From: a virus
Strand: one strand, 5' to 3'
IMG/VR virus record: IMGVR_UViG_3300030110_000088
Location: 1-20,420 of that record
Length of the DNA stretch: 20,420 nucleotides
The position numbers and the translations under genes were made by a program. Under the pieces are notes generated by a model, which had not been told where the DNA came from, searched no databases, and saw only the letters and a list, made by a program, of their open reading frames with translations. Shown here piece after piece: positions 4,242-20,420 of this stretch. The stretch's first letter is position 1, and the number at the start of each line of letters is the position of its first letter.

Positions 4242-4523
4242 TTACTTTACCTTGCCGCCCTTGGCATAGCCCTTTTTCTTCATCATGCCGCCGTTAGCCA
4301 TCTTCTGAACCTTGCCACCTTTGGCCATGCCCTTTTTCTTCATCATCATGCCGCCATTGGCCATCTTCTGGACTTTACCGCCTTTAGCATAGCCCTTCTT
4401 TTTCATGGCTCCACCAGCAGCCATTTTCTGGACTTTACCGCCTTTGGCCATGCCCTTAGACTTCATGTTTCCACCCACAAGAGATGCTGAATATTCTTCC
4501 ATAGTCATAAATTCTTTTGCCAT
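4242..4523 (-). CDS. Lys/Gly/Met tandem-repeat protein
   Basis: The 93-aa protein has a 19-residue head (MAKEFMTMEEYSASLVGGN) and then four tandem units beginning at residues 20, 40, 61 and 81. The consensus is MKKKG[YM]AKGGKVQKMANGG, the last unit being cut after KVK. It is strongly cationic, with no acidic residue after position 10. The ATG has a strong AGGAG six bases upstream. Proteins with such KGG/MGG repeats are frequent in uncultured marine phages but have no assigned function; binding to packaged DNA or the inner capsid is conceivable from the charge. It sits in a run of tiny basic genes, upstream of the TTG-started 225-aa gene. Confidence 0.75.
   Translation of the reverse strand: MAKEFMTMEEYSASLVGGNMKSKGMAKGGKVQKMAAGGAMKKKGYAKGGKVQKMANGGMMMKKKGMAKGGKVQKMANGGMMKKKGYAKGGKVK
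4245..4466 (-). repeat. In-frame tandem repeat, about 60 bp unit, four copies
   Basis: The DNA encoding residues 20-93 of the Lys/Gly protein repeats with periods of 60, 63 and 60 bases. Each unit contains a 'catcttctg[ga]ac[ct]tt[ga]ccgcc/acc' block on the plus strand and a 'cc[ct]tt[ct]ttcat' block. Synonymous differences between copies show the units have been held at protein level and are not a fresh duplication. The final copy is truncated by the stop codon. Confidence 0.8.
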
Positions 4524-18775: not shown

Positions 18776-20221
18776 TTAGTAATAAGCCTGTATCCTACTA
18801 TAATTATCTTCATCTTCCCAGTCATCTGTTGGTAATTGTACAAAATTACCCTGCCGATACCGCATCAACGCCTGTGTCATGCTGTCAACCAGATCGTCAT
18901 ACTCCCCATTAGGGAACGCCGCTACCTCTTCAATCAACTCGTCCGCAAACGTAGTGTCGGGGGCCCAAACCATTCCAGCCTCAAAAAGTGGTGACACGGA
19001 ATGGACCCTCGTCACCTTATCATTACCTTTGCTCGGCGTAAAGTTAACAACAGGTATGCCCATGTTCCGTAGTTCGTGGGTCAAGGGGGTCCCTGACGCT
19101 TTGGCCTCAATGATGACGGTGTCGGGGTCCCAGTAATTATACTGTTCTAACGCTATCTCCTTCAACTCCGGAAAGTCCCACCGCCCCTTCTGACTATCCA
19201 ATAATATCAAAGCCGGGGGACCCCCAGCCTCCTCTGGCCGGAAAACACCCCAAGTTGTAATAGCCGAATAGTCCGCCGTCTCCCTCTTGCTAAACGCCGT
19301 ATCATAACTCTGTATAACAAACTCAAGATTGGGAACCCGCTCTTTTTCCCACAAGTTCCACCACTCCCGCCGGATAATCGCATTCTCCTCACCCGTCGGA
19401 TTTTGCTGATACTGAGCATTCCACTTACTAGGCGGTATTGATGCTTTGACCGCGGTGAGATCCTCCATCGACCAGAACTCCGGCCAACAGGGCTTGTTAT
19501 CCTCAAAAATGGCAGGAAGTTCTACAACCTCCCATTGATCCGCCAAAGGATCTTTAGCCATAGAACGAAGCAGTTGACCCGTCATATCCTTCTCGGACCA
19601 TCGGGTCTGAACCAAAACAATAGACCCACCCGGCTGGAGCCTCTGCCGGGGGCCCCCTGTGTACCAATCCCATGCGTCATCAAAACCATTAGCAGACATC
19701 GCCGTCTGCTCCGAATGCGGATCATCAATGATTACGAGATCACCACCGCGTCCCGCCAAGTTCGATCCAACACCAACGGCATAGTACATTCCACCACTAG
19801 CCGTGTCCCATCGCCCCGACGCTTTACTATCAACAGCCAGACGTACTTCTGGGAATATGTCTTTGTAATCGTCACTATCAATTAAGTTCTTTGTCTTTCG
19901 TCCAAAGTTAACGGCAAGCTCTGTCGTGTGCGTTGCCTGAATAATCTTCATCTTTGGATTCTTACCCATCATCCATGCAGGAAACAAGAAAGAAGCGAAC
20001 TCGGACTTCGTGTGCCGCGGTGCCATGTTAATGATCAAACGCTTTAACTCGCCGCTCGCGACACGCTGCAACTTGTCCGCAATGATTTTATGATGACGAC
20101 CGGCTATGAACTCCGGCCACATGTTTTTTACAAAGATTAAAAAGTCCTCGCGACACGCTTCGTTCTTTTCGATTTGAGCTAGTCGCAGACGAAGCTTGGC
20201 TTCCTGATCTGATACATCCAT
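18776..20221 (-). CDS. terL: Terminase large subunit (DNA packaging ATPase/nuclease)
   Basis: The 481-aa protein has an ATPase half with a Walker-A-like MAPRHTKSE (66-74), a GGDLVIIDDPH Walker B (159-169, D166/D167), and a QTRWSEKD coupling motif (205-212). Its C-terminal nuclease half has QSYDTAFSKRETADYSA (D307, D317), VIIEAKASGTPL (E372) and YDDLVDSMTQAL (D446 region), the acidic residues of an RNase-H-like fold. Length is normal for the family. It drives DNA into the prohead through the portal and cuts the concatemer. The ATG follows an AGGG and no strong SD. No small terminase gene is seen in the window. Upstream lies a 199-base region with regulatory repeats. Confidence 0.95.
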   Translation of the reverse strand: MDVSDQEAKLRLRLAQIEKNEACREDFLIFVKNMWPEFIAGRHHKIIADKLQRVASGELKRLIINMAPRHTKSEFASFLFPAWMMGKNPKMKIIQATHTTELAVNFGRKTKNLIDSDDYKDIFPEVRLAVDSKASGRWDTASGGMYYAVGVGSNLAGRGGDLVIIDDPHSEQTAMSANGFDDAWDWYTGGPRQRLQPGGSIVLVQTRWSEKDMTGQLLRSMAKDPLADQWEVVELPAIFEDNKPCWPEFWSMEDLTAVKASIPPSKWNAQYQQNPTGEENAIIRREWWNLWEKERVPNLEFVIQSYDTAFSKRETADYSAITTWGVFRPEEAGGPPALILLDSQKGRWDFPELKEIALEQYNYWDPDTVIIEAKASGTPLTHELRNMGIPVVNFTPSKGNDKVTRVHSVSPLFEAGMVWAPDTTFADELIEEVAAFPNGEYDDLVDSMTQALMRYRQGNFVQLPTDDWEDEDNYSRIQAYY

Positions 20222-20246: not shown

Positions 20247-20266
20247 ATGTGCACAAATATGCACAT
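20247..20266. promoter_or_regulatory. Inverted repeat, operator-like
   Basis: ATGTGCA at 20247-20253 and TGCACAT at 20260-20266 are exact reverse complements around a 6-base spacer. The repeat overlaps the -10 of the candidate terL promoter, the usual position for a repressor or activator site. No binding protein is identified in the window. Confidence 0.45.
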
Positions 20267-20284
20267 TTATTAGTCAGTTAACAA
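20256..20284 (-). promoter_or_regulatory. Candidate sigma70-type promoter for terL
   Basis: On the minus strand TTGTTA (20284-20279) and CATATT (20261-20256) match the -35 and -10 hexamers at four of six bases each, separated by exactly 17 bases, with transcription directed into terL. No experimental support; A/T-rich DNA yields such matches by chance. Confidence 0.3.
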
Positions 20285-20294
20285 GCCTTCATAT

Positions 20295-20313
20295 TTGCCT
20301 AATAAATAGGCAA
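20295..20313. repeat. Hairpin-forming inverted repeat next to parS-like site
   Basis: TTGCCTA at 20295-20301 pairs with TAGGCAA at 20307-20313 around ATAAA. Neither strand has a T-tract after it, so it is not a typical terminator. It shares two bases with the adjoining palindrome and may be part of the same protein-DNA assembly. Confidence 0.45.
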
Positions 20314-20331
20314 TGTTTCACGTGAAACATT
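20312..20331. promoter_or_regulatory. parS-like site (perfect ParB-binding palindrome)
   Basis: AATGTTTCACGTGAAACATT is a perfect 20-bp palindrome. Its central 16 bases (20314-20329, TGTTTCACGTGAAACA) are identical to the consensus parS sequence bound by chromosomal ParB/Spo0J proteins in most bacteria. An exact 16-base match is very unlikely by chance in 20 kb. It stands about 90 bases before terL in non-coding DNA. No parA or parB is present in the window; whether a phage or host ParB binds it cannot be seen. Confidence 0.8.
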
Positions 20332-20366
20332 CTATACCGTTTTTCATATGAATATTTGAGAGAAAC

Positions 20367-20420
20367 ATGGCCCATGCTCCCGCTAGGCACGGCGCGGGCG
20401 GCGGCGCGAAAATCGCGAAT
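20367..20420 (+). CDS. Possible start of a divergent GC-rich gene (partial, window edge)
   Basis: An ATG at 20367 opens an 18-codon frame to the window end (MAHAPARHGAGGGAKIAN) with GAGAG about 4-8 bases upstream. By hand count about 70% of its bases are G or C, far above the flanking A/T-rich DNA. It could be the first divergent gene of another module or a random open frame; nothing in 18 residues identifies it. Confidence 0.25.
   Translation, partial: MAHAPARHGAGGGAKIAN

Follow-up and report, generated by a model that had tools for sequence, protein, structure and literature searches.

The window, an entire viral contig of 20,420 bp that is itself a genome fragment, carries an exact copy of the bacterial parS consensus, the 16-mer TGTTTCACGTGAAACA at 20314-20329, which by its sequence is a true parS of the bacterial type in phage DNA. 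This phage parS is very probably bound by the ParB of the host, and the purpose of such binding would likely be mainly partition or positioning of the phage genome. The 16-mer is enclosed by AATGTTTCACGTGAAACATT, a perfect 20-bp palindrome (20312-20331), and lies 92 bp upstream of terL and 91 bp before the end of the window. No stop-free frame longer than 71 codons spans the site, which is therefore most likely non-coding. These coordinates confirm the original prediction of an exact parS 16-mer within a perfect palindrome upstream of the terminase gene. A search of the whole record for further copies, which that prediction had proposed, returned none at up to three mismatches, leaving the site as the single copy. 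Dinucleotide shuffles gave a mean of 0.08 matches to the 16-mer at the same threshold, and the chance of the exact 16-mer in 20 kb, estimated from base composition, is ~6e-6.

The terL gene (18776-20221, minus strand; PHROG 38, E 1.6e-109) encodes the large terminase subunit and opens the structural (late) block that follows parS, in which all genes are on the minus strand. By terL, the named phages nearest to the window are Pelagibacter phage HTVC027P (63% identity), 023Pt_psg01, DSL-LC04 and HTVC023P. Between parS and terL lies a promoter-like element, TTGTTA-N17-CATATT (20256-20284, minus strand), recognized from the sequence and from relatives, which is weak and did not reach the cut-off of the promoter scan; a sigma-70 promoter scan of the leader gave no call. 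This element is overlapped by a short inverted repeat, ATGTGCACAAATATGCACAT (20247-20266), that is terminator-like by pattern only. A second inverted repeat, TTGCCTA-N5-TAGGCAA (20295-20313), abuts parS on the terL side and varies among relatives. In the other direction, away from terL, a GTTTYTCNCAAATANTYA element is conserved ~20-45 bp beyond parS (window ~20350-20370, minus strand) and is also present in the leaders of relatives without parS. Elsewhere in the window, a small ORF (4242-4523, minus strand) is made of KGGKVQKMANGG-like repeats.

The exact site is found in 62 of the 80 nearest terL loci, and several of the remaining 18 end before the site position. Absence from close relatives, which would have spoken against the original prediction, does not apply, as near relatives carry the site at the same place. 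Across 34 dereplicated leaders, picked for carrying the site within two mismatches, mean conservation is 0.998 in the 16-mer vs 0.79, 0.81 and 0.62 in the flanks. Because these leaders were selected for having the site, a census of 192 terL upstream regions is the fairer test of conservation. In this census, which covered 170 kb upstream of terL genes of at least 70% terL identity, the pattern TGTTYCACGTGRAACA was matched by 103 error-free sites, by four with one mismatch and by none with two, and four scrambled palindromes gave no matches at up to two mismatches in the same 170 kb. The gap between perfect and mismatched sites is consistent with a functional site, unlike drift.

The substitutions that do occur follow a recognizable pattern. 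Only T/C at position 5 and A/G at position 12 are frequent, with C at position 1 seen once, so that the phage sites form the 16-bp palindrome TGTTNCACGTGAAACA with its known T/C and A/G degeneracy. The general parS consensus is TGTTNCACGTGAAACA, the Caulobacter version is t/cGTTt/cCACGTGAAAca, and in several species ParB binds GTTTCAC as well as GTTCCAC (PMC7022226). At the level of sequence, the Y/R variants of the phage sites equal these known chromosomal parS variants. Two sites are present in 16 loci, spaced ~24 bp apart in 15 of the 16 and with the two variants in either order, and each of 15 longer clade records holds exactly one copy within two mismatches. On the terL tree (118 rows), the presence of parS changes 9 times vs 34 in shuffles and is therefore clustered, with repeated losses or gains. 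An association of parS with high G+C is a trend only, as the independent-pairs test was not significant. Taken together, conservation, the census and the terL tree point to a bacterial parS kept under selection. A near-site with one mismatch in HTVC027P was rejected as a homologous parS, as it sits in a nuclease-like ORF and codes FHVKH. This served as a negative control: synonymous changes break the near-palindrome in about half of the relatives in the HTVC027P clade while FHVKH stays coded, so the near-site looks protein-constrained.

The phages that carry parS appear to lack the proteins that would normally accompany it. Neither ParB_N (PF02195) nor the ParA-type AAA_31 (PF13614) was found in any of 17 relatives, with control genomes positive, and a search confined to the tyrosine type of integrase (PF00589) likewise gave 0 of 17. 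A phage ParB of strongly divergent sequence might escape the ParB_N model. Among the 17 is a genome of 57.5 kb (G005) with one exact parS, taken as complete because of its 301-bp exact terminal repeat. These results oppose the suggestion of a phage-plasmid with its own ParABS, insofar as 17 relatives can speak for a window that is a fragment, and they provide no sign of a temperate phage with a tyrosine integrase. The cultured relative HTVC027P has been described as obligately lytic (PMC12753301), and the parS-bearing marine phages are apparently virulent. No tRNA genes were found in the relatives scanned. Beyond these genomes, ParB_N was matched in only 5 of 50 records from a sample of viral stretches collected by the parS pattern, nearly all outside the close terL family, suggesting that viruses may often carry parS but no ParB, with many of those records being fragments.

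The position of the site is steady among near relatives and flexible beyond them. In near relatives, the exact 16-mer usually lies between -84 and -152 relative to terL; with terS and a nuclease-like gene preceding terL, its position is about -1056 to -1058. Within the genus-level clade, parS is nearly always 51-273 bp upstream of the late operon, directly upstream of terS-nuclease-terL in relatives whose operon starts at terS, and in a -71/-95 subclade the gene is preceded by the sites and these in turn by a promoter-like TATAAT. In one of these arrangements (G007, L216-L218; ~31072-32047), the gene between terS and terL was assigned by eye as a VRR_NUC-like nuclease. One subclade has undergone a clean deletion that removed parS together with the adjoining palindrome TTGCCTA-N5-TAGGCAA and left the promoter-like element intact; a member of this subclade, G001, carries parS in a different context at a distance of 6.6 kb. 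Another genome, G050, has three copies. Among 120 parS-bearing viral stretches collected by pattern alone, and so chosen for having parS, 26 share at least 50% terL identity with the window; parS is just upstream of the terL operon in 15 of these and elsewhere in 11, some inside genes, and in some wider relatives it is kilobases from terL. Since many relatives are without it, parS is not essential. The positions elsewhere in wider kin, the deletion beside an intact promoter-like element and the distant G001 copy favour a genome-wide role in partition or positioning over an essential late-promoter element. As a counterpoint, the spacing of 51-273 bp to the late operon, kept almost throughout the genus-level clade, is steadier than a pure centromere requires. 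More distant phages also carry the site: three fragments (L097, L124 and L133) with terL identity of only 28-29% hold three to five exact parS each, a few kb from terL, and gave no ParB_N match, while Bacteriophage DSS3_MAL1 (L538) has exact parS at 2520 and 5007, ~2.5 kb apart, near the end of its 150-kb genome.

As no ParB, ParA or tyrosine integrase was found in the relatives, the reader of parS is most likely host ParB. Recruitment of host ParB for placement or partition of the phage genome is the reading considered probable overall, and hijacking of host ParB for segregation, as originally proposed, would be the best interpretation of a conserved site accompanied by no phage ParB. In this mechanism, the chromosomal ParB of the host, a CTP-dependent DNA clamp, would load at the phage parS after DNA entry, as the phage itself appears to encode no ParB, and would then spread along the adjacent phage DNA. 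The ParB-coated genome could be treated as a chromosome origin region via ParA and possibly SMC, whose handling would place it inside the cell. If a marine host grows poorly and the lytic cycle proceeds slowly or pauses, the phage genome might in this way be inherited by daughter cells. The identity of the site, its strong conservation and parS-type degeneracy, the failure to find a phage ParA, ParB or integrase, and the positional flexibility were observed, whereas binding and spreading of ParB and a benefit for partition or positioning are inferred; the flexibility is the reason for preferring placement or partition.

The main rival, by virtue of the usual parS position and of known repression by ParB at intergenic parS, is a copy-number timer, in which host ParB at parS would cover the late promoter and repress terL and the structural genes at low genome number, until replication adds further parS copies over which the limited ParB is diluted, releasing the late operon. 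Such repression of neighbouring genes occurs in Pseudomonas aeruginosa, where ParB at the intergenic parS3 and parS4 represses downstream genes (PMC7022226), and both the steady distance to terL or terS-nuclease-terL in the genus-level clade and the placement of the -71/-95 sites between TATAAT and gene would suit it. However, the promoter is unsupported by the scan, one subclade lost parS and kept the promoter-like element, and parS is 6.6 kb away in G001 and kilobases from terL or in genes in wider relatives. Repression of this kind is accordingly rated as rather unlikely, and host ParB as a timer of the lytic programme of a virulent phage, silencing the terminase operon early, is similarly doubtful. 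An operator for a phage-encoded regulator could also explain a palindrome close to the operon start, and weak HTH matches (HTH_28, Sigma70_r4, KORA) were obtained for one or more proteins of the relative G003. However, this would make the match to the universal 16-mer and its Y/R degeneracy a coincidence, and the site is found too at unrelated positions and in unrelated phages, so this option is improbable.

Titration is no better placed. A single site amplified through phage replication could draw off host ParB, or SMC loading, and so disturb chromosome segregation or cell division, as the 3-5 copies in some unrelated phages might suggest; yet almost all relatives have one site per genome, which makes a weak decoy, whereas a titrating phage should gain copies, and a decoy function is thus given a low probability. 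A mark of the packaging region or genome end beside terL, also raised in the original prediction, fares worse and is very improbable. Contigs do end within 500 bp upstream of terL more often than downstream (49 of 176 vs 10 of 139), but these ends fall at scattered bases within a GC-rich variable block that may itself break assemblies, which led to the rejection of a fixed genome end at the parS site, and the site is dispensable and movable, having been lost where the region is otherwise kept and lying kilobases from terL in wider kin. Finally, the location of the site only 91 bp from the window end might hint at chance or at host DNA joined to the phage during assembly. This explanation has next to no probability given the chance expectation above, and is refuted by the near-relative loci and the 192-terL census; the same site occurs within many independent contigs, in many of them well inside longer sequences, ruling out a wrongly joined host chromosome.

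With these alternatives set aside as less probable, recruitment of host ParB can be compared with known systems. The end of gene 10 in Bacillus phage phi29 holds TGTTTCACGTGGAACA, which fits TGTTYCACGTGRAACA and is one letter off the site of the window. This is presumably the site meant by Meijer et al. According to PMC9437464, which describes the work of Meijer et al. (2005), phi29 depends on the host ParB, Spo0J, for the trapping of its DNA in spores. Phi29 is virulent, as the phages studied here appear to be, and is said to use host ParB in trans for genome keeping. The phage of the window would most likely do as phi29 does and recruit the ParB of its host in trans. It differs from phi29 in being marine, with spores not known, and in having a non-coding site that is generally found where the late operon begins, is doubled in some relatives and is conserved across a phage clade. 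Chromosomal parABS systems, through which bacteria segregate their own chromosome, have a parS with this very 16-mer and with the natural variants seen in the phage sites (PMC7022226), whereas here the site is phage-borne and without parA or parB. A marine alphaproteobacterial MAG also has the exact 16-mer in two copies on one 4-kb contig, beside gidA/rsmG-like genes (read by eye). Phage-plasmids and extrachromosomal prophages with ParABS, such as P1 and mycobacteriophages (PMC7157519), and the ParB-only Lacachita (PMC10286716), are similar in that the phage employs a partition system, but they are temperate phages with genes for ParB and, in most cases, ParA, and no such genes or tyrosine integrase were found here. 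A further parallel is provided by phages of Alphaproteobacteria that carry CtrA-binding sites, for which lytic deferment has been proposed (PMC9437464). These also place sites for a host cell-cycle DNA-binding protein on phage DNA, although the host protein is a different one and the sites are of transcription-factor rather than centromere type.

A search of genome contigs with terL for a possible host recovered five loci in MAGs of conflicting taxa. L227 (PBTU01000003.1), L224, L225, L226 and L228 were binned as Verrucomicrobia, Rhodobacteraceae, Sphingobacteriales and Maricaulis, and host assignment through these loci was rejected, as the conflict looks like misbinning. The L227 contig and the IMG/VR contig of L067 are both 21,061 bp.

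Among open-licence PMC papers, no report was found of a conserved host-type parS in virulent phages lacking ParB, and the same literature on phage parS with host ParB yielded only mentions of phi29, temperate phages with ParB and the CtrA parallel. The use of a host centromere-binding protein by a virulent phage is known from phi29, where the reason is tied to spores. A letter-perfect parS in many marine podoviruses without ParB suggests that the borrowing of ParB is much more general, and therefore that a reason beyond sporulation is needed. Candidate reasons are placement of the genome, its partition where cells are slow or starved, and the timing of late genes.
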